From contig CP136063.1 of assembly GCA_032622095.1 (NCBI GenBank), forward strand, positions 23,996,987 through 24,060,986: a stretch of DNA of 64,000 bases, written 5' to 3'. The position numbers and the translations under genes were made by a program. The notes below the pieces were generated by a model, which was not told the DNA's origin, did not search any database, and saw only the letters and a program-made list of their open reading frames with translations. The stretch comes from Siphonodentalium dalli. Lineage: Eukaryota; Mollusca; Scaphopoda; Gadilida; Siphonodentaliidae. Below, piece after piece: positions 10,964 through 31,623 of the stretch. Numbering within the stretch: position 1 is the first letter of the stretch; each line of letters begins with the position of its first letter.

Positions 10964-11296
10964 GAAGATTTTTATTCAAATAATAGATTTCCGTTTGGTG
11001 TAGATTTGAATGTTGGTCATAATCAAATGTTTGTTTATTCTGATATTGCCGATTTCACAATTGTTGGAAATGTTGAAGTACAAATTTTACGAGTTGTTTC
11101 TTTCAGAATTAAAAGAGATATCGGCGGATTACATGTAAAACATGAATTTTTAAATTTACATTATGTTCCAGTTTCAAAGTCATACTTTGACAAAATTAGT
11201 GTGAATATAAGTGGCGACACAGGAGGAAAATCAATTCAGTTTATTGATGGTAAGTCTTTGGCGAAGCTGCATTTCAGAAAACGAGAGGAGTTCTAA
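10964..11296 (+). pseudogene. Penton-like minor capsid protein, 3' fragment (unit 1)
   Basis: The last ~110 residues of the protein encoded complete at 32986-33819 in unit 2. The homology begins abruptly at GAAGATTTTTATTC, with the terminal minisatellite directly upstream. The fragment carries an 18-base in-frame insertion near 11046-11066 and a 3-base in-frame insertion near 11222 compared with unit 2. The stop and the seven-base gap to the next gene are the same in both units. With the N-terminal jelly-roll half missing it cannot make a full capsid subunit. It may simply be the upstream scar of the deletion that created unit 1. Confidence 0.85.
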
Positions 11297-11302
11297 AAAA
11301 CA

Positions 11303-11677
11303 ATGTTCCCCGTGTATAGAGGTGTACCACGGCAATATGGTAACGGTATTGGTTCAATTTTCAAATCAGTTATGAGATCTGCTGTACCATTTCTAAAACC
11401 GATTGGTCGGACAGCTTTACAACTTGCGAAAAAACACACTTTTGGTGTTGCAGATGAAATTATTAATCAAGGTAAAAGTCCGAAAGAAGCGTTGATGTCT
11501 GAAGGTAAAAAAGCTTTAAAATCTTTTGGCACACAAGCTAAAAATCAAATTTTGAACTCGAGACAAAAACCTAGAAAAAGAGTAGCGAATTCAAAAATGA
11601 ATCATTCAGCTGTCAAACGCCGAAAAAGTCAGTCGAAAAAACATCCTAGCAGTCGAGCTCTTGATATTTTTGATTAA
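11303..11677 (+). CDS. Small basic virion core protein, pX/pVI-like (unit 1)
   Basis: A 124-residue, strongly basic protein. Its N-terminus (VYRGVPRQYGNG) is followed by a predicted amphipathic stretch around residues 17-50 and a lysine/arginine-rich C-terminal half (SRQKPRKR, KRRKSQSKKH). The position between the penton-like and major-capsid genes, the size and the charge fit the small core or membrane-lytic proteins of Polintons and adenoviruses. This is role by analogy, since I see no decisive domain. QYGN followed by G at residues 11-15 fits the adenovirus protease cleavage pattern. The nucleotide sequence appears identical to the copy at 33826-34200. The start is the first ATG, seven bases after the preceding stop, and the stop lies three bases before the next start. 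Confidence 0.8.
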   Translation: MFPVYRGVPRQYGNGIGSIFKSVMRSAVPFLKPIGRTALQLAKKHTFGVADEIINQGKSPKEALMSEGKKALKSFGTQAKNQILNSRQKPRKRVANSKMNHSAVKRRKSQSKKHPSSRALDIFD

Positions 11678-11679
11678 TC

Positions 11680-12984
11680 ATGGCACAAATGGTAAATGGA
11701 TCATGCGAATGCAATAAATCGGAACTTGATATAACACATGTTCCACCAACGGTGGCTACAATGTCAGAATCGCAGTGGATCGAAAATCATCCGATTGCAC
11801 AGCTGAATAATTCTGCTCTGATAGAGTTTGTCATACCATCTCAAACCGAAAAGTGGACAGATATTAATCAATCTTATCTTTATGTGAAATTCAAAATTAC
11901 AAAAAAAGATGGAACTAATTTGGTAGCTGGTACGGAATTAGCACCTGTTAACAATTTCTTTCATAGCATGTTCAGCAGTATCGATGTTTACTTGAACAAC
12001 AAATTGATAACTTCGAATTCTGACACTTACCCATACCGAGCATATTTCGAAAATCTGTTGGGATACTCTCCAGAATATAAAGATAATCAATTAGCAAATT
12101 TAGAAATGTGGTATGGCGATACAGCAGAACAATTTGAAGAGATTACCAAAGGTGGTGGCAATGCTGGATTAACTTCTAGAGAAAGTTTTATCGGTGGTAG
12201 TAAATTTGTTGAACTATGTGGACGCTTACACACTGATCTGTTTCTTCAAGAAAAATATTTACCAAATGGAATTGAAATTCGTATCAGATTAAACAGATCA
12301 CCATCAAAATTTTGCCTCATTGGCTCCGAGGATGGACAAATTGTTTTCGAATCAGCAGTGTTCCATGTCAGAACAGTTAGTCTCTTTCCAGCGGTCTCAT
12401 ATAAATTAAATCAAGAAATTGTCCAGTCAAAAATGAAACTACCTATCAGACGAGTAGAAATAAAAACTTTCACAATTAGTACTGGACTTAGATCAAAAAT
12501 TGAAGACCGCTTATTTCAAGGACAATTACCAAAGAGACTTTTTATTGCGTTGGTCGAAAATAAAGATATGAATGGAGATTTGGGTACCAATCCATTCCAC
12601 TTCAAACATTTCAGTTTGAATAAATTGGAAGTTAGTCAAGACGGTCATACAATACATAACCGTCCATTTGAACCAAACTTCGCAACAAAACAATGTCTCA
12701 GATCATATTTATCTTTGTATCAATCTTTAGGAATGTTTGGTGTTAACAAATCAATTGGCATTAATTTAAAAGAATATATGAATGGTTATTGTTTGTGGGG
12801 TTTCGACTTGACACCGGACCAAGGAAGCGACGAGGGACATCTACATCCTATAAAGACAGGGAACCTGTGTTTGGAGCTTCAGTTCTTGACAGCTCTCACT
12901 ACAGCCGTCAACGTTTTGGTGTATGCTGAATTCGACAGTGAAATAGAGATCACAGCTTTGAGAGAAGTGCTTACTGACTATTAG
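11680..12984 (+). CDS. Major capsid-like protein, intact copy (unit 1)
   Basis: A 434-residue open frame. The N-terminus has a short cysteine pair (CECNKSELD), then IEFVIPSQTEKWTDINQSYL and YVKFKITKKDG. This pattern is shared with the widespread invertebrate family annotated as uncharacterized protein F54H12.2-like, which I recall as lying beside a Polinton-type integrase gene in nematodes. Length, gene order (after the pX-like gene, before the protease) and abundant beta-strand-like segments make it the likely double-jelly-roll major capsid protein, which builds the virion shell. That role is inferred, because the fold cannot be seen from sequence alone. It starts three bases after the previous stop and ends two bases before the next start, so the late genes form a compact block. 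Unlike the copy in unit 2 it has no stop or frameshift. Confidence 0.8.
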   Translation: MAQMVNGSCECNKSELDITHVPPTVATMSESQWIENHPIAQLNNSALIEFVIPSQTEKWTDINQSYLYVKFKITKKDGTNLVAGTELAPVNNFFHSMFSSIDVYLNNKLITSNSDTYPYRAYFENLLGYSPEYKDNQLANLEMWYGDTAEQFEEITKGGGNAGLTSRESFIGGSKFVELCGRLHTDLFLQEKYLPNGIEIRIRLNRSPSKFCLIGSEDGQIVFESAVFHVRTVSLFPAVSYKLNQEIVQSKMKLPIRRVEIKTFTISTGLRSKIEDRLFQGQLPKRLFIALVENKDMNGDLGTNPFHFKHFSLNKLEVSQDGHTIHNRPFEPNFATKQCLRSYLSLYQSLGMFGVNKSIGINLKEYMNGYCLWGFDLTPDQGSDEGHLHPIKTGNLCLELQFLTALTTAVNVLVYAEFDSEIEITALREVLTDY

Positions 12985-12985
12985 G

Positions 12986-13444
12986 ATGGAGTTCACATCA
13001 CAGCTATGGAACTACTATGAAGAATACCAATGTTCACAAAACTTTGCTCCGAGATGGAACCTGATCTTGGACACACTCAACAACGCTATGATTGAAGAAC
13101 TACAAGAACTTATTCGCAAGGAAGTGTCAGAAAACTGTGAAGGATGTAAAATAGAACATCCTAGTCAACGTGAACATGTTCTGTGTTTGTTCTCTACAAC
13201 TGATGATTGGACAAACCAGTTTATCGACTTAGCGCTGATTAAACTTGACATATACAATGTTATGGAAAGATGGTTCCCGAAGCTGATGGAGTTAAACCCA
13301 CACTGCAAGGATAAGTTCGAAGCATACGTCATGTGGGATCATCTGAGAAACAGTTTAGAACTCAACCGCAAAACATTCGATGCAGAGTGGACTCTGATGT
13401 GGTCACAGCGAGTCAAAGAGAATTACAACGATGCAGACAGCTGA
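12986..13444 (+). CDS. Conserved late-block protein of unknown function (unit 1)
   Basis: A 152-residue acidic, probably helical protein starting MEFTSQLWNYYEEY, with a CEGC pair near residue 51 and WERWF/LW-type aromatic clusters. I do not recognise a domain. It begins two bases after the major-capsid stop and overlaps the protease gene by 14 bases, so it belongs to the same transcription block. The unit 2 copy (35495-35953) differs at a few residues and is also open. Two open copies beside broken neighbours could mean constraint or chance. A scaffold or protease-cofactor role would suit its position but is speculation. Confidence 0.75.
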   Translation: MEFTSQLWNYYEEYQCSQNFAPRWNLILDTLNNAMIEELQELIRKEVSENCEGCKIEHPSQREHVLCLFSTTDDWTNQFIDLALIKLDIYNVMERWFPKLMELNPHCKDKFEAYVMWDHLRNSLELNRKTFDAEWTLMWSQRVKENYNDADS

Positions 13445-13904
13445 ACTTCAATATATTCTGGACAATTCCTGGTTGTGTAAACTTAACACAGATGTTTGTG
13501 CTAGACATCTGTTACCAGAGAAGAAACCACAACATATTCAAGCATATATTGTGAACACGCACTCATCGGATCAGCCAGGAGAACACTGGACATTGATGTT
13601 ATTCAATGGAAAATCAGCTGTATACTTCGACTCCTTTGGACTACCACCACCGAGACGATATATGTTACCATTCATAAAAAGGAACTCATCAGCATGGACT
13701 ATGAATACAACACGATATCAACATCGTGCGACAAATGTGTGTGGATTATATTGTATATTCGCACTCCACCACATGATGAAAGGAAAGAGGATGAAAAGAT
13801 TATTCAATTCTCGGGATTTCTTCAAGAATGACAGAACAATAGTTCGATGGTTTGGAAAGCACTATGGTCGATTATACAGAAAAGCAAATTTGCTGTTGAA
13901 TTAA
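13431..13904 (+). CDS. Adenain-like (Ulp1-fold) cysteine protease, intact (unit 1)
   Basis: A 157-residue protein of the adenovirus-protease/Ulp1 clan, which processes precursor core and capsid proteins in Polinton-type viruses. The catalytic set is visible in the expected order: His52 in GEHWTLMLF, Asp67 in AVYFDSFG, Gln97 in RYQHRA and Cys104 in TNVCGLYC. Length is normal for the Polinton form, which is shorter than the adenovirus enzyme (about 200 residues). The start overlaps the preceding gene. This copy is open throughout, whereas the unit 2 copy has a nonsense codon at residue 89, upstream of Gln97 and Cys104. A likely polyadenylation signal follows at 14156. Confidence 0.9.
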   Translation: MQTAELQYILDNSWLCKLNTDVCARHLLPEKKPQHIQAYIVNTHSSDQPGEHWTLMLFNGKSAVYFDSFGLPPPRRYMLPFIKRNSSAWTMNTTRYQHRATNVCGLYCIFALHHMMKGKRMKRLFNSRDFFKNDRTIVRWFGKHYGRLYRKANLLLN

Positions 13905-14279
13905 ACTTCACCAGGACATCGACGGCTGATATACATACAACGCAAAGAAGACGACGACCAGATAACAACGAATGTGTCAACAACTCCACAAAATAGACTC
14001 TTTTGTTATTGATTCAGCGTAGGATGTTGTAGGATGTTCAATTAAGTTTCTTCAAATCTGAGACCTTGTTTTGTACATAAATTATTGTACTTTGTTAATA
14101 TTATTGATGTATAATAATATATTATTGTTCATTGTTCTTGTTCTTGTTTTTGAAAAATAAATGATAAATTTCAACAAAATCGTTTTCACTGTAGGATCCC
14201 CACCAATTGATTCTGTTCGTGTCGATGTGTCATCTCTGGTCAGAATTATACAAACTTTAAATTAGTAATGAAAAAATGT
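13905..14279. other. 3' untranslated and subterminal region of unit 1
   Basis: 375 bases between the protease stop and the palindromic telomere, nearly identical to 36414-36783 in unit 2. They hold the polyadenylation signal at 14156 and no open frame of note. Confidence 0.7.
14156..14161 (+). terminator. Polyadenylation signal of the late block (unit 1)
   Basis: AATAAA about 250 bases after the protease stop, in a T-rich setting. The matching hexamer occurs at 36665-36670 in unit 2. Confidence 0.55.
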
Positions 14280-14833
14280 CTAAGTCCATTTTCATTTTTT
14301 CGATCAGAAATGTCACATCAATGACAGGAACATCTATCCTCAGGGGGGGAACTATGGCCCAGTACCCCCCAGACAGGGACACTATGGCCCAGTACCCCCA
14401 GACAGGGACACTATGGCCCAGTACCCCCCCAGACAGGGACACTATGGCCAGTACCCCCCAGACAGGGACACTATGGCCCAGTACCCCCCAGATATGGACA
14501 CTATGGCCCAGTATATCCCCAGACATGGGCACTATGCCCCAGTGGGCCATAGTGGCCATGTCTGGGGGGGGTACTGGGCCATAGTGGCCATGTCTGGGGA
14601 GATACTGGGCCATAGTGTCCATATCTGGGGGGTACTGGGCCATAGTGTCCCTGTCTGGGGGGTACTGGCCATAGTGTCCCTGTCTGGGGGGTACTGGCCA
14701 TAGTGGCCCTGTCTGGGGGTATTGGGCCATAGTGGCCCTGTCTGTGGGGTACTGGGCCATAGTTTTCCCCCTGAGGATAGATGTTCCTGTCATTGATGTG
14801 ACATTTCTGATCGAAAAAATGAAAATGGACTTA
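14280..14833. repeat. Palindromic telomere junction between units 1 and 2
   Basis: Arms of about 68 bases (14280-14347 and 14766-14833) are near-perfect reverse complements, starting CTAAGTCC / GGACTTAG. Between them lies the 30-bp minisatellite: seven or so units in one orientation (ACTATGGCCCAGTACC), a short asymmetric centre at about 14525-14560, then about seven units in the reverse orientation. The outer tip AGTAGTA found at the ends of the whole integration is absent here. It therefore marks a shared terminal repeat between two head-to-tail units. Long frames on both strands across it are only translations of the repeat. Confidence 0.9.
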
Positions 14834-14912
14834 GAATTATTTTTTTTAAAAGGAAAATCTCACTTTGGAAAATATCAATTAGCTATCAAGAGTATCTTTT
14901 CGATCAGTTGGT

Positions 14913-14928
14913 GGCCCTGAAAAGGGCC
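14913..14928 (-). terminator. Histone-type mRNA 3' stem-loop
   Basis: On the minus strand the sequence reads AAAAC, GGCCCTTTTCAGGGCC, ACCAAC: a 6-bp stem, a 4-base loop and the flanks of the metazoan replication-dependent histone 3' end. It lies 60 bases after the stop of the OTU-like gene on the same strand. A purine-rich stretch (GAAAAGA) follows about 10 bases later, as expected of a histone downstream element that pairs with U7 snRNA. It is not next to any histone gene. Confidence 0.85.
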
Positions 14929-14987
14929 GTTTTATTTTTGTTATAGTTTAGAATCCGCCACATTGAACTTCTTTGTTCGACAAAACT

Positions 14988-15455
14988 TCAATTGATTTGT
15001 CTCCTCTCCTCAATCCATATTTCGCATTCACAATAATGCTCGTGGCAAGCGTGGGGGATCCACACTAGAGGTATTGATGACTTGAATCTTGGTGTTGATT
15101 TGTAGCTGCCTTTGGTAGCATCAAACATGGCGATAGGTCGCTGTATAACAGTCGCCGCTAATTCAACCATCAATCTTGATTCGGCCAAAAGTGGTGAGTG
15201 CCGTAAGTCTTGTGCCGACGCACCAAGTTCGTCCCTCTCTGTGTAGTACAGGTCAACTACCGCATCTCTCAGAACCATCCATCCATCGGTCGTCCCGTAA
15301 ACCCCAATGCTGAGTGCCCTCCAAAATAGAGATATTTCTTCGCCGTACACTGCTTTACAGTATACCCCACGGACCATCATCTCGTCAAGATCGGTTATGT
15401 TTACAGCAGTCATCTTTGAATGCAGAATAAATTGTTCGCTGCCGTGCTTGAACAT
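14988..15455 (-). CDS. OTU-like domain protein (degenerate active site?)
   Basis: A 155-residue minus-strand frame near the left end of unit 2. SLFWRALSIGVYG and LRDAVVDLYY (residues about 57-85), followed by RLMVELAATVIQRPIAMFD and a closing histidine-rich stretch, resemble the helical core of OTU/vertnin-type domains. OTU proteases remove ubiquitin. The usual Asp-Gly-x-Cys nucleophile segment should lie just before SLFWRAL, but GEEI is found there, so catalysis is doubtful. Such a protein could oppose host ubiquitin signalling or have become structural, but neither is shown. The gene ends 60 bases before a histone-type stem-loop on the same strand. Confidence in the frame is good; in the family, moderate. 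Confidence 0.5.
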   Translation of the reverse strand: MFKHGSEQFILHSKMTAVNITDLDEMMVRGVYCKAVYGEEISLFWRALSIGVYGTTDGWMVLRDAVVDLYYTERDELGASAQDLRHSPLLAESRLMVELAATVIQRPIAMFDATKGSYKSTPRFKSSIPLVWIPHACHEHYCECEIWIEERRQIN

Positions 15456-15990
15456 ATATCATGATTGCGCGGGCGGTAGAGAAAGCACATAATGCTTTGA
15501 CGTTAAAAATGACAAATGTTTCCTGACGTTGTGTTTCTTTTCAGTGCATTATCTGTTAGTTTCACCATTTCGATATGTTATAGATTAAATTCATGATAGT
15601 ATATGCAATTAATTAAGATGTTTTAACATATGAATTCATCTTCGTTCATAAACGATGACCAAGTAAAGTTATCAAATGCAATGATCAAGAAAAATGTTCA
15701 GTATGTTTCTTGTGTTCAGTTTTTTTATGTATAAAATATGTACAATTCCAAAACACAAAACTAGAAAATCATTCCATATTTTCCTAACGAGGTAACAAAT
15801 ATATCAAATCATGTGTACCAAATAATAGATAATGATCTAACGAAATTTAAAAAACATTTGTTTGATCGCTATACAATAATGATCAACAAGAACCTCTAAC
15901 CTAATTGATTTGGCTAACTGGGTACGCGGGCGTAATAGTAAGCCTGTTTTTTTGGATGTTAGACTTGTGTCTGTGGTCCAGACATGTAAA
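15456..15990. other. Intergenic region with duplicated regulatory-like blocks
   Basis: A 43-base block at 15508-15550 (TGACAAATGTTTCCTGACG…) recurs at 18314-18356 just upstream of the polymerase gene. Its neighbour (GAATTCATCTTCGTTCATAA, about 15631) recurs beside that second copy. A diverged single copy of the ~279-bp repeat seen at 16747-17497 occupies 15713-15893. No coding frame is supported. Confidence 0.6.
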
Positions 15991-16040
15991 ATACGTTGCG
16001 TATTGAGAAGGAGTTATCATTAAACTTTTTTTTGAACTTT

Positions 16041-16285
16041 TTACCGGATTTTCCCGATGCCTCCTGTGCGGTCGTGAAACCAATTTATTGTCCTATCGTC
16101 ATTCTCGGTGTCTATCAGCTTGACTATCTCTTTCTGCCATGGCATAAGTTTCATTGCTTGTTGCTTGTTGTAGAGGTCTTTCTTGTTATTTTCTTCAATG
16201 ATCTTTGATGCTATACGCCGGCATTTTTCTTCATGTAGTACAAAGCGGTCTCTATGTTCGTCAATCATCTGTTCTGTTGACTTGT
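16041..16285 (-). pseudogene. Rep-type superfamily 3 helicase fragment
   Basis: Read on the minus strand, the frame has a basic/helical lead and then MPWQKEIVKLIDTENDDRTI and a degenerate Walker A, DRTGGIGK. The order PWQ…DDRT…G-x-x-GK is that of the helicase domain of CRESS-DNA virus Rep proteins and related parvovirus-type helicases, which unwind replicating viral DNA. The fragment stops right after Walker A, at a phrase (AGTTATCATTAAAC, about 16012) also found in the host satellite. Upstream it is cut by a piece of polymerase gene. Walker B, the sensor motif and the nuclease domain are all absent, so it is a remnant. Confidence 0.55.
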
Positions 16286-16380
16286 CACCAAAGTTTCAAA
16301 ATTACATTGGACCTTACTTGGCTTCTGATTACTACAAACCAGACATGACGAGCGTGAAAAATCGAGAGAAATTCTTATGA
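16286..16380 (+). pseudogene. Displaced fragment of the element's DNA polymerase gene
   Basis: About 80 bases match 27196-27270 inside the DNA polymerase B gene, including SPKFQNYIGPYLASDYYKPD. This displaced copy has bases at its 3' edge that are missing from the main gene, where an 11-base gap shifts the frame. It was therefore copied before that lesion, or from another copy. It is fused head-on to the Rep-like fragment at a shared TCACCAAAG and runs straight into a histone-type stem-loop 20 bases after its stop. Confidence 0.8.
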
Positions 16381-16399
16381 ATCCTGGAAAAGAGAAAAC

Positions 16400-16415
16400 G
16401 GCCCTTTTCAGGGCC
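16400..16415 (+). terminator. Histone-type mRNA 3' stem-loop
   Basis: GAAAAC, GGCCCTTTTCAGGGCC, ACACACA on the plus strand. Stem and loop are identical to the other two copies. Only the displaced polymerase fragment precedes it on this strand, so the gene it once served has probably been lost. Confidence 0.85.
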
Positions 16416-16483
16416 ACACACATTTCCCAAAAGGTTACTCTTTCATAGCTGAAAAAAACAAAACACGATTGTTCAATTCATAA

Positions 16484-16489
16484 TTTATT
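16484..16489 (-). terminator. Polyadenylation signal, minus-strand gene
   Basis: AATAAA on the minus strand, about 15 bases after the stop of the 16505-16840 frame. That gene therefore appears to use ordinary polyadenylation, unlike its stem-loop-ended neighbours. Confidence 0.5.
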
Positions 16490-16504
16490 CACACAACATA
16501 ATTT

Positions 16505-16840
16505 TCAATTGTTTGTGTCGATTCGTTTATCTGTTTTTGGATTGTAGAATGGTCTCAGCTTCTTTTTCTTGGAAGTTTTCTTGGAATTTTCAATTTCTGG
16601 ATGTTTATCTTCAGATTTGTTCTGTGAATCATTCGTAGGATCAACAGGTCGGTCTTGTTTGGAAACATCTGATGTTGTAGACATCTCTTCAGTTTTGATA
16701 TCTGCATTTGTTCTTGTATTGTTACTGCTTGTAGACTTTTGTATAGTTTTCACATGTGTACCAAATAATAGATAATGATCTAACGAAATTAAAAACATTT
16801 GTTTGATCGCTATACAATAATGATCAAGAAAAATATGCAT
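16505..16840 (-). CDS. Low-complexity hydrophilic protein, unknown
   Basis: A 111-residue minus-strand frame. The first ~30 residues are encoded inside a tandem repeat unit and may be an accidental N-terminal extension. The remainder is serine/threonine/asparagine-rich (STSSNNTRTNADIK), acidic, and ends in a lysine-rich block (KKTSKKKKLRPFYNPK). I recognise no domain. It looks intrinsically disordered, with a basic tail that could bind nucleic acid. An AATAAA lies directly downstream. The start is uncertain, because repeat expansion has replaced whatever lay upstream. Confidence 0.4.
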   Translation of the reverse strand: MHIFLDHYCIAIKQMFLISLDHYLLFGTHVKTIQKSTSSNNTRTNADIKTEEMSTTSDVSKQDRPVDPTNDSQNKSEDKHPEIENSKKTSKKKKLRPFYNPKTDKRIDTNN

Positions 16841-17497
16841 GTTGATCCGTCTCTAAAAAAACACAACTTGAGGAAATACTTGTCGATTTTTAAGTTCAAT
16901 GCGTTGTGTTTTCATTGACGCCCGTGTAACAATCTTGGGTTCAGTTTTATGTATAAAATATGTACAATTCCAAAACACAAAACTAGAAAAACATTCCATA
17001 TTTTCCTAACGAGGTAACAAATATATCAAATCATGTGTACCAAATAATAGATAATGATCTAACGAAATTAAAAACATTTGTTTGATCGCTATACAATAAT
17101 GATCAAGAAAAATATGCATGTTGATCCGTCTCTGAAAAAACACAACTTGAGGAAATACTTGTCAATTTTTAAGTTCAATGCGTTGTGTTTTCATTGACGC
17201 CCGTGTAACAATCTTGGGTTCAGTTTTATGTATAAAATATGTACAATTCCAAAACACAAAACCAGAAAAACATTCCATATTTTCCTAACGAGGTAATAAA
17301 TATATCAATCATGTGTACCAAATAATAGATAATGATCTAACGAAATTAAAAATATTTGTTTGATCGCTATGCAATAATGATCAAGAAAAATATGCATGTT
17401 GATCCGTCTCTGAAAAAACACAACGTCAGGAAATATTTGTCAATTTTAACGCCAACGCGACATGTGATTTCATTGTCGCCCGTGTCAAATGTATACA
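16747..17497. repeat. Tandem ~279-bp repeat carrying a TATA-like box
   Basis: About two and two-thirds units. CATGTGTACCAAATAATAG recurs at about 16752, 17033 and 17310, and each full unit also contains TGTATAAAATATG and CATTGACGCCCGTGT. A further separated copy lies at 15713-15893. The last unit grades into the 5' region of the gene at 17539, so the unit may be a duplicated promoter. Confidence 0.85.
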
Positions 17498-17538
17498 AAT
17501 ATTTTCGAATTTGATCAACCTTACATTGCTATCAAGAG

Positions 17539-18028
17539 ATGGATCCGTTAACAGAATTTCTTCAGAGTGAGATATACAGTGATCCTGTTGCACAGAATAT
17601 ATATGCTGCGCCACAGTCAACAGTCCAAGCTAATACGACAATGACTATAGGTGGTGATACACTCATTTTAAAAGCGATTTTAGATAAACTGAGATGTCTT
17701 CGCAGGGATATTGACGTGAAAACGCAAGTAACGCATCATGAAGTGAAAGTGAGTCTTCGTTTCGTTGCAGAACAGATAGATATCCCAATCAGGGTTCATG
17801 ATGTTCAGAGATCGAAAGAGCAGAAACAGATCAAAAAAGAAAAAATCATCGGCGACGAAAGAAAAACAACCTAAGAGTATCATGAAGGCTTCTACTGAGA
17901 CAAAAGTCAGATTTCATCTTCCTTGTAAAGAATCTAGAGATACAGAGAAATGTGATGAATTCGCAAAAGCTCTCGGTTCTCATGGGAAAGATATGTCAAG
18001 ATATAAGAAAAACACAAAACGGTGTTAA
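17539..18028 (+). pseudogene. Left-arm gene of unknown function, probably frameshifted
   Basis: One frame runs from ATG 17539 for 111 residues (MDPLTEFLQSEIYSDP…, moderately acidic, then a lysine-rich end). A second frame, overlapping it from about 17798, continues to 18028 with a basic region (RSRNRSKKKKSS) and KVRFHLPCKESRD. The simplest reading is one gene of about 160 codons with a single frameshift near 17830-17870. Two overlapping genes are possible. I recognise no domain. A histone-type stem-loop lies 23 bases after the second stop, the spacing normal for histone mRNAs. Confidence 0.5.
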
Positions 18029-18050
18029 AGTCAGATGATAAATTTAAAAC

Positions 18051-18066
18051 GGCCCTTTTCAGGGCC
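18051..18066 (+). terminator. Histone-type mRNA 3' stem-loop
   Basis: AAAAC, GGCCCTTTTCAGGGCC, ACCAAAA: the closest match of the three to the metazoan histone consensus, including the ACCA flank. A purine-rich AAGAAAA follows about 18 bases later, where a U7-pairing element would lie. It stands 23 bases after a stop codon. Confidence 0.88.
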
Positions 18067-18313
18067 ACCAAAATAGTTACAATAAGAAAACTCATGCTAA
18101 TGCTTTGTTTAAAATCTATACTTCTACAGCTCTCACAAATATTTTTTCTTCACAAAATTACATGCATGTTTTTTATCAACATGTTAGTTATCTGGTAAAT
18201 GTTATATTTGCTAGACAAAACTTCTTTTGTTACCAGTCACTTTCTTATAAATTTTTTGGATGCAAATCACATCTACATTTTAGAATTGTTTAATCAACAA
18301 CAAATATTTGAAA

Positions 18314-18405
18314 AATGACAAATGTTTCCTGACGTTGTGTTTCTTTTCAGTGCATTATGAATTCATCTTAGTTCATAAACGATCGCGATGAAAATGCTAT
18401 AAAAG
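18314..18405 (+). promoter_or_regulatory. Promoter region of the DNA polymerase gene
   Basis: A TATA box (TATAAAAG, 18398-18405) lies about 80 bases before the polymerase start codon. Upstream is a 43-base block (18314-18356) duplicated from, or to, 15508-15550. Repetition of the block suggests a shared early-gene control element, but no factor site is identified. Confidence 0.5.
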
Positions 18406-18485
18406 CAGGTGTAATTCTACACTTTACACTTCAACTCCGAAGAAGCCAGTCGCAATATTTTTTGCTGACAAAACTCAAGACAAAA

Positions 18486-19764
18486 ATGTTTAAGAGAATT
18501 AAAAGACCTGTTTCAGACGACGCCACCAGCGAAGAAGATATTGTTAGAAAAAGACCAAGGCCTGCAGTTATTGAAGAGAGCGATATGGAAACTGATGGGG
18601 CAGAAAGTGAAGAAAGTTCTAGTGATGGGCAGATTGGACGCGGTCGAAGACAGAATAGAGAAATTGGTGGGAAGAGAAAGAGAAGTCTGGCTAGAGAGCG
18701 TGTTGTGTTCAATCCAACAAAATATTTCAAATTGGAGCTGAACTCGGAGAAATTTTCCAGAAAATTTAAATCAGCAGCACGACAATTTGGTGTGAAATTC
18801 GAGAAATTTACAGATCCAATCGAGAACATTCCAGAGATATTTGAGAAGTTGACAGAAGAATTGAAACAGAAATGTTCAGCAAATGAGAAGACAAGAATCA
18901 GAGTTACGATAAATCATCCAGGACTTGATATGAGCATTTTCATTCCATTCACAAAAGCCAGTGAATATATATTATTTTTTTTAATGGTGGGACACTCATG
19001 GATAATATTCAAAATGTGGTTCAATCAAATGCAGACTTTACAATGCATGACGGTGCACTCAATTTCGAAATCTTCGTTACAGATATTCCGGAAGGTGGTA
19101 CACGACACTCACTACATTATGGACCATTTGCAGACAAGAACAAGCTGACAAAAGTAAAAAGAAGTATTGTCCGGATTGAAAATGCTGATGATGTTATGTG
19201 TATGGCAAGATCTATTGTCGTCGGAATGTGTAAGGCAGATAGTGATGGATCTGCGTGCTGGTCAAAGAAATGGAAAAGAATAAGACAATCAATATACACA
19301 GCACAAACAGATGCAGCAAAAAATCTACTCAACCGTGCTGGCGGAATGAGTTCCACAAGATTCAAGAAATATTGTATCCAGAATATGTTGTGAAAATTCA
19401 CAATGAATTTGCAGGCGCTGGATTTCTATTTGAACCTGCAGAAATGTGTTCGGAGAGCAAATGTGTACACATCTACTACAACAACAATCACTTCGACACC
19501 ATAACATCAATCAAAGGATTTCTAGGCACCAACTATTGCTGTGAATTCTGTGACATTGGATTCAAAAGTCGTGGCGATCATCGATGCAGATTTGTTTGTG
19601 CATGCTCGTCATTGACACAGTGTAATTTCAAAAATTTGGTGAAGTGTAGAACGTGTCGACGATCATTCAGAAGTAAATCTTGTTTCGACAACCATTTGAA
19701 GACGGAAGGAAAACAGAAAAGAAAAATATGTGATTTGGTTCAACTATGCAACAATTGTGATGAA
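18486..19764 (+). pseudogene. polB: Protein-primed DNA polymerase B, N-terminal half (unit 2)
   Basis: The start is ATG 18486. An acidic/serine-rich and then basic N-terminal region (about residues 1-75) leads to RVVFNPTKYFKLEL. Later come EIFVTDIPEGGTRHSLHYG and a multi-cysteine zinc-binding region (CCEFCDIGFKSRGDHRC…). These precede the exonuclease domain encoded at 26592-29870. Frameshifts are visible near 18970-19000 and 19330-19350. At 19765 the gene is interrupted by a 6.8 kb transposon. Together with the other half this is the enzyme that would copy the element's linear genome from a protein primer. As it stands it cannot be expressed. Confidence 0.8.
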
Positions 19765-19799
19765 GCATTACGTGTACACTGGCTTTAAAAAATGATTCG

Positions 19800-21330
19800 G
19801 GGGTACCTCACCAAATGTACTGAGCTGTTATGGGTCATAATATCAGTTCCAACGGGGTTTTATTACTGTGAAACAAGTCAATGAATATCAAAGAATATAA
19901 CTTGACATACTATATATGATATTTCACGACGTTAGCCACACGCAGACGCCATTTTGACGTCATATCTAACCAAGTAAATTGAAAGCAGTTGCTGCTTATA
20001 TATTATCTTGTTATATATGGTTGTTGGGATATCAGAAAGATTTATTGGACACTGTGTTGTGAACTAACTTGCAAAGATGGTTTGCAGTATTCATTAAGTC
20101 AAAGTGGAGTGGCTCAGGGGCGCGGGGGGTAATTGTTAGAGAAGGGGGACTGAAAACCTGTAGAATGAGATTGTAATATGAATGGATTATTGTAGTCGAT
20201 TTCAACTGGGAATAGGTTATACTGGCGCACCTCTGCCCGTCTGTCAACCTGTACGTCCGTCTAGCCGTGTGTCCAGCCATGCATCTGTATGTATACGTCC
20301 ATCCGATGTCTTTTCGGCGGACTTAGGTCTGAATCAGTATTCTGTGTTTTACGCCATATTTTCGGACAAGAATTATGCTCGCAAAATGAATCATCGGTGT
20401 GTTCTGTCAGCAAATATGTCTCGTGTGGTATATCATCATGACATAGGTATTCAAATTGGCGTCATTTGGGTTCTCATTCTACCGACAAACGCAGCAAATG
20501 CTAGATGCGGTTTGGAACCCCCGAGTCCACACCCTGGGTCTGTGTTTTTGTTTAACACTACTAATTCATCAATATAATCGACTTGAGTGTGTGCATGTGT
20601 TGAGAATGTTACCACTTGGTGATCAGCAATCAGAATCGCGGGTACTAAATAATAAACGCTCTTTATATAAAAACAAAACTGAAAGTTTGATATAAACTCT
20701 TTAAACTTGGATCAAGCCTTGTTATTTTAATATGTGCTTCATGCAGCTTTGTTTGAGGTTGCATATCGATATTCATGTCTATATGATATTCATTATGAAT
20801 AGAGAGGTTAAGGTAATAACGTGTAACGTGAACATCAATGTATAGGAGCAGTCCTGTCTGGTGCATCGAAACTTCATGCAGTTTTGTTTGAGGTTGCATA
20901 TCGATATTCATGTCTCTTTATATGATATTTGCTTATTTTACAGTCGTCGGTATATATAGGCTAGTGAATATGTAAAAGTTGTAGTTAGAAACTTTGGACA
21001 ATTCATCGACTAATGTCTTTTCTAGTTGCTTTTATAAGCTATATAATAATTCAAACACGCGAACTTGAAGGTCAAGACCCTCTTCTGTTATCAAATATTT
21101 TGTCAAAGCATGTATTGCGCGGTCTGGTAGAGTACACTGAATACTTGACTTGAAACAAATTTTATTTACACAAAATACGAAAGGGATTGGGGCACAAGTT
21201 TGGCAACTTATAAAGCCCCTCTCCCAATACGATAACACACAAACATGATGACGGTTTTACGTATACACTGAATATTCGGGTACACGCCAGGAAAATTGTT
21301 TCAAGACTAGCAGGGCATAGCCCCGACAAT
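19800..21330. other. Left interior of the inserted transposon
   Basis: No gene supported. A ~50-base phrase (TTGAGGTTGCATATCGATATT) occurs twice, near 20754 and 20888. A phrase at about 20785-20830 (GAGAGGTTAAGGTAATAAC) is found inverted at about 26250-26275, part of the element's internal palindromy. Confidence 0.55.
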
Positions 21331-24300
21331 ACGTTTAGTTAGACAGATATGATGATTGCAGTTTGCAAACGGTTAACAGCTTTTAAATAGCATATATATT
21401 GGCTATATATGTAATATACAACAATAATTGTCGTATAACAAATAATGTATCATAGACTTCAGTTGCAATAAACTACAAATAAACAATGCATGCATGTTGC
21501 GGTCATTAGCTATATGTGGCCATATATGACCCCTGTCAGTCTAGACTATCAATACACTATCAATAAACACCCACCCATAATCCCCTAATACACAGTGGAT
21601 TCGGGAGTGTATTGGGAATGACACATACCAGCAATGTTAATTGTCGCTGTCTGCAACAGAGGTGAAAGGTTATACCCGAGTGATTTCTGACTATCATTGT
21701 AAAGAAATTGTTTCTTAATTTTGTTAGCGTTTCTTTACAAACATATCAAGAATTTAATAGATAAATATACCATTTTGCGAGGTGAGGTTGGGCACCGGAG
21801 TTATTTCTGATGTTTGTAAAGGAATTAATTTTTATAGCGTTTCTTCGCCACAATCAACAGGTAAATATACAATTTTCCGAGATGATGTAAGGCACCTGAG
21901 TGAATTTTGAAGTTTGTAAGTTTGCATTATCCTGACAACGTTCCTTTACAAAATATCAAGATTAAGCATGACAAATAAACAGCATTCGTTTAAATGCATT
22001 GCATGGTATGGATAAAGAGCATTTGTCCAATTCATGCACAAGGACTTTAATAGAATATAGCCATCGGACAGGGGAACATTCCCTCTGTATAACTAGATAT
22101 TTCCCGAGATCCCCCCTTCTGGATAAGTTGCCGAGATATTAAGAAACAAAAGACGGGGTCCCAACCTCACTAAATTTACAGAGTGCATATGCTATAGATA
22201 ATATTCAATGAATCTGTCGAATTTATCACTTGAAACCCTGGAATATTTCCACGCTGTGGGCAGAAGCTGGGAATTAATTTGATGCCATCGGAAAGGGGAA
22301 CATTCCCTCTGTGTAACTAGATATTTCCCGAGCCCCTCCCTGCTGGATAAGTTGCCGAGATATTAAGAAACAAAAGTCGGGGTCCCAACCTCACTAAATT
22401 TACTGAGTGCATCTGTTACAGAAAATGTTTGTTGAATCTGCCGAATGTATTACTTGAAACGCTGAGATATATCCACGCTGTGGGCAGAACCTGAGAATTA
22501 GTTTGATGCCATCGGAAAGGGGAACATTCCCTCTGTGTAACTAGATATTTCCCGAACCCCTCCAATCTGGATAAGTTGCCGAGATATTGAGAAACAAAAG
22601 TCGGGGTCCCAACCTCACTAAATTACAGAGTGCATCTGTTATAGATAATATCCGATGAATCTGCAGAATTTATCACTTGAAACGCTGGGAAATTTCCACG
22701 CTGTGGGAAGAACCTGTGAGTTATTTTGATGTCATCGGAAAGGGGAACATTCCCTCTGTATAACTAGATATTTCTCAAGCCCCTCCTTTCTGGATAAGTT
22801 GCCGATATATTAAGAATCAAAAGTTGGGGTCCCAACCTCACTAAATTTACAGAGTGCATCTGTTACAGATTATGATTGTTGAATCTGCCAAATTTATTAC
22901 TTGAAACGCTGAGATATTTCCACGTTGTGGGAAGAATCTGGGAATTAATTTTGATGCCATCGGCAAGGGGAACATTCCCTCTGTGTAACTAGATATTTCC
23001 CGAGCCCCTCCCTTCTGGATAAGTTGCCGAGATATTAAGATACAAAAGTCGGGGTCCCAAATGGACGGAGTGTACCTGTTATAGATAATATCCGATGAAT
23101 CTGCCGAATTTATCACTTGAAACGCGTGGAAATATCCCAGCGTTTCAAGTGATAAATTCGGCAGATTCAACAAACATATTCTGTAACAGATGCACTCTGT
23201 AAATTTAGTGAAGTTGTGACCCCGACTTTTGTTTCTTAATATTTCGGCAACTTATCGAGAAGGGAGGGGATCGCGAAATATCTAGTTATACAGGGGGAAT
23301 GTTCACCTTTCCGATGACATCAAAATTTATTCCCAGGTTCTTCCCACAGCGTGGAAATATCTCAGCGTTTCAAGTAATAAATTCGGCAGATTCAACAAAC
23401 ATATTCTGTAACAGATGCACTCAGTAAATTTAGTGAGGTTGGGACCCCGACTTTTGTTTCTCAATATTTCGGCAACTCATCCAGAAGGGAGGGGCTCGCG
23501 AAATATCTAGTTATACAGAGGGAATGTTCCCCTTTCCGATGACATCAAAATTAACTCCCAGGTTCTTCCCACAGCGTGGAAAAATCCCAGTGTTTCAACT
23601 GATAAATTTGGCAGTTTCATCGGATATTATCTATAACAGATGCACTCTGTAATTTAGTGAGGTTGGGACCCCGACTTTTGTTTCTTAATATCTCGGTAAC
23701 TTATCCAGAAGGAAGGGGCTCGGGAAATATCTAGTTATACAGAGGGAATTTTCCCATTTTCGATGACGTAAAAATTATTTCCCAGGTTCTTCACACAGAC
23801 TGGAAATATCTCAGCGTTTCAAGTGATAAATTCGGCATATTCATCGGATATTATATATAACAGATGCACTCTGTAAATTTAGTGAGGTTGGGACCCCGAC
23901 TTTTGTTTCTTAGTAACCCGGCAACTTATCCAGAAGGGAGGGGCACGGGAAATATCTAGTTACACATAGGGAATGTTCCCCTTTCCGATGGCATCAAAAT
24001 TAATTCCCAGGTTCTGCCCACAGCGTGGAAATATCTCAGCGTTTCAAGTAATAAATTCGGCAGATTCAACAAACATATTCTGTAACAGATGCACTCAGTA
24101 AATTTAGTGAGGTTGGGACCCCGACTTTTGTTTCTTAATATCTCGGTAACTTATCCAGAAGGAAGGGGCTCGGGAAATATCTAATTATACAGAGGGAATG
24201 TTCCCCTTTTCGATGACATCAAAATTAACTCCCAGGTTCTTCCCACAGCATGGAAATATTCCAGCGTTTCAAGTGATAAATTCGGCAGATTCATCAGATA

Positions 24301-26275
24301 TTATCTATAACAGATGCACTCTGTAATTTAGTGAGTTTGGGACCCCGACTTTTGTTTCTTAATATTTCGGCAACTTATCCAGAAGGGAGGGGCTCAGGAA
24401 ATATCTAGTTATACAGAGGGAATGTTCCCCTTTCCGATGACATCAAAATTAACTCCCAGGTTCTTCCCACAGCGTGGAAATATCCCAGCGTTTCAAGTGA
24501 TAAATTCGGCAGATTCATCAGCTATTATCTATAACAGATGCACTCTGTAATTTAGTGAGGTTGGGACCCCGACTTTTGTTTCTTAATATTTCGGCAACTT
24601 ATCCAGAAGGGAGGGGCCCACGAAATATCTATTTACACATAGGGAATGTTTCCCTTTCCGATGGGATCAAAATTAATTCCCAGTTACGCTTAGTTAGACT
24701 TATATGATGATTGCAGTTTGCAAACGGTTAACAGCTTTTAAATAGCATATATATTGGCTATACATGTACAACAATAATTGTCGTATAATCAACAATGTAT
24801 CATAGACTTCAGTTGCAATAAACTACAAATAAACAATGCATGCATGTTGCGGTCATTAGCTACATGTGACCATATATGACCCCTGTCAGTCTAGACTATC
24901 AATACACTATCAATAAACATCCATACCGCGCCAATAATCCCCTAATACACAGTGTATTCGGGAGTGTATTGGGAATAAAACATACCAGCAATGTTAATTG
25001 CCGCTGTCTGCCACAGAGGTGAAAGGTTATACCCGAGTGATTTCTGACTATCATTGTAAAGAAATTGTTTCTTAATTTTGTTAGCGTTTCTTTACAAACA
25101 TATCAAGAATTTAATAGATAAATATACCATTTTGCGAGGTGAGGTTGGGCACCGGAGTTATTTCTGATGTTAAATTTAGTGAGGTTGGGATCCCGACTTT
25201 TGTTTCTCAATATTTCGGCAACTTATCCAGAAGGGAGGGACTCGGGAAATATCTAGTTATACAGAGGGAATGTTCCCCTTTCCGATGACATCAAAATTAA
25301 CTCCCAGTTTCTTCCCACAGCGTGGAAATATCCCAGAGTTTCAAGTGATAAATTCGGCAGATTCATCAGATATTATCTATAACAGATGCACTCTGTAATT
25401 TAGTGAGGTTGGGACCCCGACTTTTGTTTCTTAATATTTCGGCAACTTATCCAGAAGGGAGGGCCCCGGGAAATATCTATTTACACAGAGGGAATGTTCG
25501 CCTTTTCGATGACATCAAAATTAATTCCCAGGTTCTTCCCACAGCGTGGAAATATCTCAGCGTTTCAAGTAATAAATTCGGCAGATTCAACAAACATATT
25601 CTGTAACAGATGCACTCAGTAAATTTAGTGAGGTTGGGACCCCGACTTTTGTTTCTTAATATCTCGGCAACTTATCCAGAAGGGAGGGGCTCGGGAAATA
25701 TCTAGTTACACAGAGGGAATGTTCCCCTTTCCGATGGCATCAAAATTAAATCCCAGCTTCTGCCCACAGCGTGGAAATATTCCAGTGTTTCAAGTGATAA
25801 ATTCGGCAGATTCATCGAATATTATCTATAGCATAATTATGCACTCTGTAAATTTAGTGAGGTTGAGAGCCCGTCTTTTGTTTCTTAATATCTCGGCAAC
25901 TTCTACAGAAGGGGGGGGGGGCTCGGGAAATATCTAGTTATACAGAGGGAATGTTCCCCTGTCCGATGGCTATATTCTATTAAAGTCCTTGTGCATGAAA
26001 TGGACAAACGCTCTTTATCCATACCTGCAATGCATTTAAACGAATGCTGTTTATTTGACATGCTTAATCTTGATATTTTGTAAAGGAACTTTGTCAGGAT
26101 AATGCAAACTTACAAACTTCAAAATTCACTCAGGTGCCTTACATCATCTCGGAAAATTGTATATTTACCTGTTGATATGTGGCGAAGAAACGCTATAAAA
26201 ATTAATGAACAATTCCTTTACAAACATCAGAAATAACTCTGTAACTTCAGGTTACAAGTTATTACCTTAACCTCT
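21330..26275. repeat. Palindromic array of a ~225-bp satellite
   Basis: Units marked by GTCGGGGTCCCAACCTCACT repeat in one orientation from about 22080 to 23130. They then flip and continue in the opposite orientation (AGTGAGGTTGGGACCCCGAC) from about 23140 to 24680 and from 25170 to 25980. A ~490-bp block beginning TTAGTTAGAC at about 21335 is duplicated in direct orientation at about 24690 and interrupts the second array. The outer flanks (about 21800-22090 and 25960-26260) are reverse complements. No coding frame is supported. Confidence 0.85.
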
Positions 26276-26591
26276 CTATTTATAATGAATATCTCAATGT
26301 ACATGGTAGTTAGATTACCTCATAAACAGAACATATGACCACACGATGAGGAAATTTTATATGATTTAAAAAAAATTATTTTATTTTATTTAATTCAATT
26401 TAAACAAGTTTAGAACATCAAACGACTGATGTAGCAAGTCTTACAAATGTCTACTTTTACAAGAGTAATGTCAAAACGTGATATATGGGTAATTTGCTGG
26501 CTATATTGGCTTAATTAAATTAGTGAGGTTGGGACCCCGACTTTCTTCTATAATCCGGGGTATGCAGTTTAAAGCAGATGTACACGTAATG

Positions 26592-29500
26592 GAAATTCTC
26601 ACCAATAAATCAAGCAGACATATATGTGCGGGGTTGAAGAAATGCAAACATTGCAAAGAAATCGTTGAAGCAGATCACAGGTGCTACATTCCAAAATATG
26701 AATCACCGGAAAAGAAACCTGCAAAGATTCCATATGTATTCTTTGACTTTGAATGCAGACAAGACACAGGTGTTCATATTCCAAACTTCTGTGTTGCACA
26801 TACCGCTTGTGGAGATTTCATGTGCAAACCAATCGAAGAAAAATGTGAAACATGCGGACCGGATTCCAGAGAATTTGTATTCAAGGGTGACAACGTTTTA
26901 ACAGACTTCACAAACTGGTTATTCCACCAAGATCACAAAGGATGTGTTGCAATAGCACATAATGCTCAGGGATACGATGCACAGTTTCTACTTCAAGCAC
27001 TCATACAAAGTGGAATTCATAAACCAGAACTGATCATGAATGGAAACAAAATTCTCAGTTTAAAATGCAACAGCGTGAAAGTTATTGATTCTCTGAGTTT
27101 TCTGATGATGCCGCTTTCAAAGTTTCCACAAACTTTTCCACAAACTTTTCAGCTGAATGAGATGGCGAAAGGACACTTTCCACATTGGGCGAATTCACCA
27201 AAGTTTCAAAATTACATTGGACCTTACTTGGCTTCTGATTACTACAAACCAGACATGATGAGCGTGGAAAATCTTTGAATGGTACAATGAGAAAATAGAA
27301 AATTACGTGATATTCAACTTCCAAGAAGAGATGGAGAAGTACTGCAAATCAGACGTGGATATTCTTCGCCGTGGATGTGGAAATTTCAGGAAATACATAT
27401 TGGAAACAGAACAGATTGACCCGTTCATTGAGTCAATAACATTGGCGCAAGTTTGCAATTTGGCATGGAGGAAAAATTCAATGCCAGAGAAAACAATTGG
27501 AATCATTCCAGATAGTGGATACCCATGTGCTAAAAACTATTCCATGAAAGCGACACGTTGGCTTCAACATCTATCATTGTCACGTATGATAACAACTAAG
27601 CATGCCTTGAATGGAGGAGAAATCAAGATTGGTGGACACTACGTCGATGGATATGAGGAAGCCACAAGAACAGTTTTTGAGATGAATGGATGTCTGTTTC
27701 ATGGATGTCCAAAATGTTACAGCAACAGACAATACAAGAATCCCTATACGATGCTCACCATGGAAGAATTATATACAAGAACTCAACAGAAGAAAGATGA
27801 ACTGGAAAGTCTTGGTTACAGAGTTGAATCAATTTGGGGGCATCAGATCGACGAAAGAATGAAATCGGATGTGAAATTCAAACAACAAATGGAATCTTTC
27901 TACAAACATCGAGACCCCATTTTGCCAAGAGAAGCATTGTTTGGTGGACGTACAAATGCCATCAAATTGTACGAGGAAATTGGTCAAGATTCCACAAAAG
28001 AAATCAAGTTCATCGATGTGTGTTCGTTGTATCCAATTGCAACAAATATAAATTCTACCCTGTTGGACATCCAGAAATTTTGAGCCAAGAGCAGATCGAT
28101 CAAGAACACATTAGAGACTATGCGGGACTTGTTAAATGTACAATTTTACCACCATCGAAATTGTATATTCCAGTTCTACCGATTTATTGTAACAACAAAA
28201 TGGTTTTTACTTCGTGCAACACTTGCGCCATCAATGAGAACGAGACATGTAACCATTCAGAAGAAGATCGAGCTATAACCGGAGTGTGGACCACGCCAGA
28301 ATTATTCAAAGCAATGGATGTTGGCTACAAAATACTTGATGTGTACCAAATTTGGCATTGGACAGATTGGACAGATGAAATATACAAATCCTATATCGAC
28401 AAACATCTAAAGATCAAACAGGAATGTAGTGGTTATCCATTTGGTGTTGAGACAGAAGAACAGAAGCAAAAGTTTGTACAGGATTATTATGCAGCTGAGG
28501 GTATAAAATTGGAGAACATCGAGAAGAATCCAGGAAAACGCCAAATATCTAAAATTATGATTAATTGTATATGGGGTAAGAATGCACAAAGAAATCTTAT
28601 GTCAAAAACAGAGTATGTGGATAAGCCATCACGTTATTTTGAATTGCTTACTAGTAACAATATAATTGTTCAAAATGTTACACTTCTTGATGGTGACAAA
28701 TTCATTCTGGTAAATTATGTTGATATTTTAGATAATATTGAACCTCATCATTCAGCAAATGTTGTTGTTGCTTCTTTTGTTACAGCGTATGCAAGATTAC
28801 AATTGTATAAAGTTTTTAAAAAACTTGGAGATAGAGTGCTGTATTTTGATACAGACAGCTGTATGTATGTCAGTGATCCATCAAAGAAGAACATCAACAC
28901 TATCGAAGGAAGATTGGGGAAATGGAGCGACGAACATCCAGATGCAAAGATTGTCAAATTTGTTGGACTTGGGCCAAAGAACTACGGATATGAATACATC
29001 AAAGATGGGAGAAGATACACCAAATGTAAGGTAAAAGGTATCACTCTTGATTACAGCACAAGTCAAAAAGTTAATTTTGAAACAATGGTACAATGTGTTA
29101 ATGATCGTGAAAATTTCAAAACTGTTGTTGAGTATCCTTCCAGAATTAAAAGACAAAAGAACCATCAACTGAAAGTGAGTGTCAAACCAAAACTTTCAGA
29201 TCGGTGTACACAAAACGAAAACTCGTCAATGGTATTCACACATATCCATACGGATGGAGATGTTGAGTCATTTCATGTCAAGATGTTGACAGGAGTAGAA
29301 CCTCCAGAAATTGCTGAGAAGATTTATGGATATTTGGTGGCACAGTCAACACTTATTCCAGAGATAAAGAAGGAATTACAAGAAGTCTGGTTTGAAAGAG
29401 AAAAGGAAGCAATACTACGATGCTGTGATGTAGACGAATGTTTACAGAGATTGGACTATCTTGAGACAAGTATATTTTCTCATTTCTCTCAAAAATATAT

Positions 29501-29870
29501 TAAATCATTTATTAAATTCAAAACATTTTTTCTCATTGAAAGAATATCTGATTTTTGGATATTTGGTGGTGATGAACACCATTTAGATTTAGAAACTTTT
29601 GATGAACATGACTATATTCATTATACAAAGTATGAAGATAATTATCCTCTTGCTAGGGGAACCTTTAAATCAGTTCCTAGGATCTATGGGTATTTGTTAA
29701 CAAAAACAATGTCAACATATGCAAAAATTAAAAACATTATAGGAAATGATTTTTTTGTTTACAGAACAAACAGAAGAATAGAAGACTATAATACTTGGAT
29801 TATTGAAATGTTTGGAAATATTTACAGCTATGGAGATTTCTGTTTAAAAACTAAATTCACACGTCGTTAA
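26592..29870 (+). pseudogene. polB: Protein-primed DNA polymerase B, C-terminal half (unit 2)
   Basis: The 3'-5' exonuclease and polymerase domains. A CKHCKEIVEADHRC zinc-binding segment comes first, then Exo I (FFDFEC, about 26739), Exo II (AHNAQGYDAQFL) and Exo III (YCKSDVDILRR). In the palm, motif A is DVCSLYP (about 28015), motif B KIMINCIWGK (about 28550) and motif C YFDTDS (28842-28859), with both catalytic aspartates present. Two lesions break the frame: an 11-base gap near 27272, recognisable because the displaced fragment at 16286 still has those bases, and a single-base-class shift near 28040-28055. The long 3' frame is otherwise open to the TAA at 29870. It is followed after 33 bases by the ATPase gene. 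Family identity is clear; the gene is inactive. Confidence 0.92.
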
Positions 29871-29903
29871 GTTCACTCTCTGATTAGACATCAAAGTGAC
29901 AAC

Positions 29904-30554: not shown

Positions 30555-30588
30555 ATTCAGTTGTTGTTACTTTTCTCATTTTAGAACC

Positions 30589-31176: not shown

Positions 31177-31232
31177 AAGATGAAACATATAATTTTTCTG
31201 CTCATTTTGAGACAACTACTTAGACAGTGAAG

Positions 31233-31601: not shown

Positions 31602-31623
31602 ATCTCAAATAAATGTGAAGAAA

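Follow-up and report, generated by a model that had tools for sequence, protein, structure and literature searches.

Why would genes of an integrated DNA virus end like histone genes? The question is raised by a 64,000-nucleotide (nt) stretch of the genome of the scaphopod mollusc Siphonodentalium dalli (assembly GCA_032622095.1, contig CP136063.1, positions 23,996,987 to 24,060,986 of the forward strand; hereafter the window, numbered from its first letter). The window contains an integrated Polinton/adintovirus, full-length but damaged, of about 22 kb (14766..36857, approximate ends), whose left arm carries three stem-loops of the type found at the 3′ ends of metazoan replication-dependent histone mRNAs. 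To our knowledge, such ends are regarded as nearly exclusive to replication-dependent histone genes. A first-pass annotation had proposed that the left-arm viral genes use them as mRNA 3′ ends and are thereby tied to host DNA synthesis, an interpretation that was supported as far as sequence can speak to it. The best overall explanation, which is considered probable, is that the stem-loops serve as histone 3′-end signals in a Polinton/adintovirus family, at four genes of its left arm (A, C, D, and E). Its basis is the sequence itself and its fit to a structure model, the position and strand of the elements, a promoter motif shared by the genes, the number of copies, gene constraint, and identity with the host histone signal.

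Histone-type stem-loops in the window and in the host

The 16-mer GGCCCTTTTCAGGGCC occurs three times in the window as an exact match, on the minus strand at 14913-14928 (SL1) and on the plus strand at 16400-16415 (SL2) and 18051-18066 (SL3); none is expected in shuffled window sequences. The sequence, positions, and strands had all been given correctly by the first-pass annotation, and its description of the flanks was borne out, with AAAAC preceding each stem-loop and ACCA following two of the three (SL1 and SL3), where SL2 has ACAC. All three elements were matched by the Rfam Histone3 model (RF00032) over its full length, downstream element included, with 39.3, 40.1, and 36.1 bits, respectively, against a gathering score of 34 bits, in agreement with the histone processing signal that had been suggested. 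No further Histone3 match, up to an E-value of 5, was detected between window positions 10500 and 38500. With their flanks, the elements extend over 14888..14933 (SL1, minus strand, the 3′ end of gene A, with the downstream element AAAAG), 16395..16439 (SL2, plus strand, a 3′ end of the gene E type), and 18046..18092 (SL3, plus strand, the 3′ end of gene C). The downstream flank of SL3 is unlike those of nine other aligned gene C ends. To judge from these features, the elements are very probably genuine histone-type 3′-end formation signals.

Two other sources of the three sites were rejected. When 400 nt on each side were compared, homology at any notable score was limited to 23-29 nt around the stem-loop, a block that is identical among the sites; thus, no single long duplication accounts for the three, and local duplication of a larger segment was ruled out. 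A chance origin was ruled out by the shuffled sequences, together with a genome-wide control with the reversed pattern.

The first-pass annotation had considered that its reading would fall if the stem-loops were confined to this locus, and they are not. The one host genome searched (2.23 Gb, nine contigs) holds 2881 sites of the pattern AAACGGYYCTTTTCAGRRCC, host histone arrays included, compared with 0 for the reversed control. On C1, the first 100 sites of the list (0.44-56.3 Mb) group into 33 clusters, 90 of the 100 lying in clusters of at least two, and a full five-stem-loop order of -+--+ (or the reverse), with similar spacing, is seen in 12 of the 33. Counts from the scored genome searches are lower bounds. 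In the Histone3 search, 75 of 409530 candidates were scored, and 63 of the 75 lie in arrays on C5 and C8; three of these loci (L111-L113) were read, and the others were taken as histone genes by position.

The three host loci encode H4 (99-100% identical to human) and H2B, with H2A in L113. The stem-loops of the host H4, H2A, and H2B genes have the same GGCCCTTTTCAGGGCC, a lead of AAAC or AAAAC, and AAAG at +14 or +16. At the viral stem-loops of the window and of 19 sampled loci (L114-L132, defined below), AAAG was found at +14 to +16 in 57 of 73; the 16 sites lacking it comprise 13 first stem-loops of gene D, SL3 in the window, and the sites at 1468 in L116 and 4611 in L122. The viral 3′ flanks take the forms ACCCA, ACCAA, ACTAA, ACACA, and AACCA, with ACTTA in a second lineage. 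Excerpts of a study of bivalve histone mRNAs describe stem-loops, with purine-rich elements seen only in some (PMC6210712).

Captured histone gene debris had also been named as a possible source of the stem-loops, and no trace of it was found beside them. Searches by tblastn with the four core histones (H1 lay outside the query set) gave a best E-value of 1.7 in the window and no match at E 0.01 in L114-L132, and the same query detected H4, H2A, and H2B in L111-L113. Within that query set, a captured histone gene was ruled out.

The left-arm gene set across copies

The 19 sampled loci comprise 11 around 12 scattered high-scoring Histone3 matches outside the C5 and C8 arrays, in which 35 Histone3 matches exceed the Rfam gathering score, and the first eight consecutive pattern clusters, which were taken regardless of score. 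Seventeen are left arms of the window's virus family, and two (L129 and L130) belong to a second lineage. Beginning at the terminal repeat, the genes of the left arm are A (-), C (+), D (-), E (+), F (-), and PolB (+). A, C, D, and E are small genes, each with a sense-strand histone stem-loop that typically lies 13-22 nt past the stop in the sampled copies. When gene ends were located by coding sequence in L114-L132, all 53 ends obtained (A 15, C 15, D 9, E 14) had a sense-strand stem-loop whose distance from the stop was constant for each gene in the alignment, namely 19 nt for A, 22 nt for C, 19 nt for E, and, in tandem, 13 and 41 nt for D. The consensus 16-mer is present at 47 of the 53 (A 13/15, C 14/15, second D stem-loop 7/9, E 13/14), and the other six are one letter off; one gene A end in L127, additional to the 53, has a stem-loop with one base changed. 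Every stem-loop beside a matched gene is on the strand of that gene.

When each open reading frame (ORF) was measured separately, the stem-loops of A, C, and E lay 18-22 nt past the stop, apart from copies with altered frames (12, 59, 157, 176, and 206 nt), and the second stem-loop of D lay 41-48 nt past it. The 60 bases between stop and SL1 noted in the first-pass annotation are correct for the window copy, but they arise because gene A is frame-broken near its end, the nine other gene A ends having 19-20 nt. Gene C, which precedes SL3, is likewise frame-broken in this copy. Gene E in other loci has the same 3′ end as SL2. Two loci, L120 (at 3075) and L121 (at 5819), have a truncated gene E that runs into other sequence, identical in the two and PolB-like by eye, without a stem-loop.

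Five of seven aligned copies of gene D carry two stems in tandem, GGCCC/GGGCC followed by GGTCC/GGACC. Relative to the former, both sides of one pair are changed in the latter, a compensatory replacement by a U-A pair that is found at 13 of the first 100 listed sites. Other stem changes among the copies include a one-sided G-U form and single stem-breaking changes. No stem-loop was found after PolB, gene F, or the late genes, the last of these in the window only.

A common upstream element distinguishes the same four genes. The motif CACAACGTCAGGAAA stands 120 nt before the ATG of both gene A (15519..15533, minus strand) and gene C (17419..17433, plus strand) in the window, where the upstream blocks of the two genes agree at 81% over 75 nt. 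With up to three mismatches allowed, stem-loop genes of the window and L114-L132 have it 113-125 nt ahead of the ATG in 60 of 62 cases (A 17/17, C 14/15, D 14/14, E 15/16), compared with at most 0.6% of shuffled upstream sequences, whereas none of 31 starts of PolB (0/16) and gene F (0/15) has it. At L111-L113, the host histone loci, the search did not detect it and gave matches with four mismatches only. Among the viral starts compared, the motif is confined to stem-loop genes; thus, genes that share a 3′ end also share 5′ control, and A, C, D, and E would form a co-regulated set, or regulon, as defined by motif and 3′ end. Gene F has a contrasting signal of the poly(A) type, AATAAA, 16 nt past its stop (16484..16489, minus strand). 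The late block, to which the first-pass annotation had assigned AATAAA in place of stem-loops, does contain it, 252-255 nt past its last stop, but a further AATAAA lies at SL1 (see below).

Median ratios of nonsynonymous to synonymous substitution (dN/dS) were 0.39 for A (14 stop-free copies), 0.43 for C (12 stop-free copies), 0.33 for D, and 0.21 for E, which indicates that these were real genes of a lineage once active. The second Polinton lineage, L129 and L130, is distinct, with an ATPase in L129 that shows 72% protein identity to that of the window. There, a gene of 126 amino acids that weakly resembles gene C (24%, pairwise E 1e-4) ends just before a stem-loop. At 335-1954 of L129 (minus strand), the gene C-like ORF and its stem-loop lie close to the ATPase, a different gene order.

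Because 11 of the 19 loci had been picked by stem-loop score, a further test was run from the gene for the major capsid protein (MCP), with stem-loops disregarded. On the listed C1 stretch, all ten scored capsid genes have a stem-loop cluster 10.3-10.7 kb upstream, whereas a random point has a cluster within 15 kb with a probability of 0.008 (0.8%). Of 2102 candidates in the capsid search, 97 were scored; these best-scored copies are 97-100% identical to the window MCP, and 89 of the 97 are free of internal stops, so the family has spread recently. Its copy number in the host genome is very high.

The virus copy in the window

The virus was identified from its terminal repeats, MCP relatives, PolB, and an A32-type packaging ATPase. 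Terminal inverted repeats were read at the window copy, and the left one (14766..14840) recurs beside the left arm in 14 of the 19 sampled loci, over 64-75 nt at 94-100% identity. The MCP, which we take to be of the adintovirus (double jelly-roll) type, gave no Pfam match. It has 631 relatives at E <= 0.001, the best database match having 64% identity and an annotated protein of the clam Mercenaria 62%; no relatives were found in viral contigs or in phages. Pfam matches above cut-off were obtained for DNA_pol_B_2 (PolB of the protein-primed type) and Pox_A32 in the window proteins, while the adenovirus-type protease (Peptidase_C5), at 20.9 bits, fell just below its cut-off of 21.3. The ORF at 32308-32715 has a chromodomain above cut-off, the sole such sign toward a retrovirus-type integrase with chromodomain.

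The N-terminal part of PolB (18486..19501, plus strand) has neither a stem-loop nor the shared promoter motif. Its remainder occupies 26523..29870 (plus strand; DNA_pol_B_2 at E 2.9e-6 for the ORF 26523-27278, the rest by ORF order), followed by the ATPase at 29904..30554 (plus strand; Pox_A32 at E 3.3e-9). PolB is interrupted by inserted satellite-like DNA; repeats of about 224 nt, in direct and inverted blocks, separate its halves at 21949-25968. A truncated second virus copy (10964..14346, plus strand), with the late block only, an intact MCP ORF at 11680-12984, and no left arm, precedes the full-length copy head to tail. A palindromic minisatellite of 29-30 nt borders the terminal repeats on their outer sides, at 14347-14763, between the tandem virus copies, and at 36860-37140.

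Gene A (14951..15413, minus strand) was placed with an inner ATG (MTAVNITDL) as its start, and tblastn pieces at 15012-15455 and 14951-15022 match the copy in L120, with the break in frame near the C-terminal end. Gene C (17539..18025, plus strand; beginning MDPLTEF) loses its frame between about 17814 and 17852. Neither window ORF has protein-database homologues at E 0.001. An OTU-like fold, suspected by eye for gene A, was not supported by Pfam, and the AlphaFold model was too poor to use (predicted local distance difference test score 39). SL2 follows a 79-nt duplicate of the PolB gene (16285..16363, plus strand; 97% identical to 27195-27273), because the gene E coding part that other copies have here is lost and replaced by other sequence, and gene D was not found in the window copy. 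An ORF from the ORF list with the C-terminal part of gene F, the zinc-knuckle gene without a stem-loop, lies at 16505..16840 (minus strand); in L116, gene F gave a zf-CCHC_3 match at E 1e-4, under the curated cut-off. Gene F and PolB, on opposite strands, are alike over roughly their first 44 residues (for example, L116 3722-4330), as if one start had been duplicated and inverted. An open stretch of 82 amino acids at 16044-16289 (minus strand) resembles by eye the helicase part of the Rep protein of CRESS-DNA (circular Rep-encoding single-stranded DNA) viruses, with no support from Pfam, and a C2H2 zinc-finger array ORF was seen by eye in the flank at 59629-60102 (minus strand). The window copy is, in sum, a damaged representative of a well-ordered system.

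Proposed S-phase expression and the alternatives

If the stem-loops act as they do in histone genes, host SLBP would bind them, and the U7 machinery would recognize the AAAAG-type downstream element and cleave after the stem, leaving left-arm mRNAs that end in the stem-loop rather than in poly(A). With such ends, it is proposed, the mRNAs would accumulate and be translated in S phase and be destroyed once replication stops. Expression of the left-arm regulon would then be confined to times when the host cell is able to replicate its DNA, and gene F and the late block would use ordinary poly(A) signals. In animals, the supply of SLBP and the decay of histone-type mRNAs are both linked to S phase (PMC5011920). 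S-phase timing is likely, because a histone-type 3′ end normally brings it, and we infer that the left-arm mRNAs would be non-polyadenylated and S-phase-linked. That S-phase gating is the benefit is moderately likely. Similar confidence is placed in an S-phase regulon of the whole virus family, in which one promoter motif and histone-type ends on four genes would have the mRNAs made, translated, and destroyed under the host histone-mRNA programme. The joint claim that such a regulon exists, is carried by very many insertions, and is old enough for at least two Polinton lineages is likewise favored, if modestly.

Several observations weigh against this reading. A host U7 RNA was not found: RF00066 matched nowhere, controls included, and a U7 pattern gave seven matches compared with six for its reversed control, the six loci inspected (five distinct sites) showing no convincing U7 hairpin. 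Predicted pairing of the window downstream elements with the 5′ end of human U7 was no better than that of shuffles. An AATAAA overlaps the A-rich lead of SL1, the gene A stem-loop. The first D stem-loop lacks both the ACC flank and a separate downstream element and is followed by AAAA, and uncompensated single stem-breaking changes are present in gene A of L118, L127, and L128 and in gene C of L114. Differences among copies amount to 6 of 848 letters in the stem-loops and 73 of 3885 in the distal flanks (Fisher p 0.012), a modest contrast drawn from related copies that are not independent. The choice of 11 of the 19 loci for a high stem-loop score outside the histone arrays must also be kept in mind.

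A fair rival, though an unlikely one, accepts that histone-type ends are formed and places their benefit elsewhere, in poly(A)-independent 3′ processing, export, and translation, which might let the virus escape a host shut-off or control through deadenylation. The signals are complete and the genes share a promoter motif, and DNA shows nothing about timing; the S-phase link of SLBP supply and decay noted above, however, means that timing would accompany the signal. It is improbable that the stem-loops are a non-functional relic, a histone 3′ end that an ancestor captured once, that recombination then copied from one viral gene to another, and that amplification has since carried along. The short and identical block of 23-29 nt shared in the window would fit such a history, as would the modest conservation over the flanks, the copies with broken stems, and the likeness between the downstream flanks of C and E ends. 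Against a relic stand the same position and sense strand at 53 of 53 ends, the compensatory stem change in gene D, the failure to find stem-loops after PolB, F, and (in the window) the late genes, the stem-loop behind another gene in the second lineage, and the lack of any core-histone trace in the searches. Least probable is that the palindromes work at the DNA level, whether in replication, packaging, or recombination, or simply terminate transcription. In favor of this, the elements are GC-rich inverted repeats of short length, located in the arm adjoining the terminal repeat, and sequences seem to be joined near SL2 and SL3. However, their loop is asymmetric, and this loop, the A-rich lead, and AAAG at +14 to +16 differ between the strands, agree in orientation with the sense strand at four genes, and are identical to the host histone signal.

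The viral ends resemble the 3′ ends of metazoan replication-dependent histone mRNAs (RF00032, SLBP/U7) in the 16-mer, the A-rich lead, the AAAG spacing, the short distance from the stop, and the uninterrupted short ORFs. They differ in that the viral genes have no core-histone similarity, one gene has tandem stem-loops, and the virus's own promoter motif was not found at L111-L113. The window virus shares with Polintons/Mavericks and adintoviruses the MCP, PolB, A32-type ATPase, chromodomain-bearing ORF, and terminal inverted repeats, and differs from the known ones in left-arm genes that end in histone-type stem-loops. The histone H4 of bracoviruses is likewise a virus-associated use of histone biology, but there the protein is a histone, whereas here only the mRNA 3′ end is histone-like. 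Full-text literature searches (adintovirus, Polinton/Maverick, virus, transposable element, bracovirus H4), judged from their listings and with most subscription journals outside their coverage, yielded no report of viral histone-type 3′ ends. Histone-like proteins of adomaviruses are mentioned in the accessible text of PMC11071296, in which the word stem-loop is absent, and the sole passage with "histone" in that of PMC8363768 is a reference.

Among 2.9 million IMG/VR contigs, none matched the motif with an ACMA flank. The bare GGCYCTTTTCAGRGCC was present in 101 IMG/VR stretches, and two more complete patterns had 0 matches; since the complete patterns matched none, none of the 101 continues with ACCA or ACAA. 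Polinton late genes were also seen in public bins named bacterial (L102-L105), which are probably animal host DNA. These four loci gave no Histone3 match up to E 1 and are uninformative, as the left arm was unrecognized in the ORF lists of L102 and L104 and the ORFs of L103 and L105 were unlisted.

If the proposed S-phase regulon is correct, it would represent a new viral strategy for cell-cycle coupling, with a histone-type end on a whole gene set, and it would explain how such transcripts could escape poly(A)-selected RNA sequencing. It would also offer many naturally occurring SLBP/U7 substrates that vary in stem and flanks, and it provides a directly testable hypothesis for the expression of integrated adintoviruses and Polintons in dividing cells.

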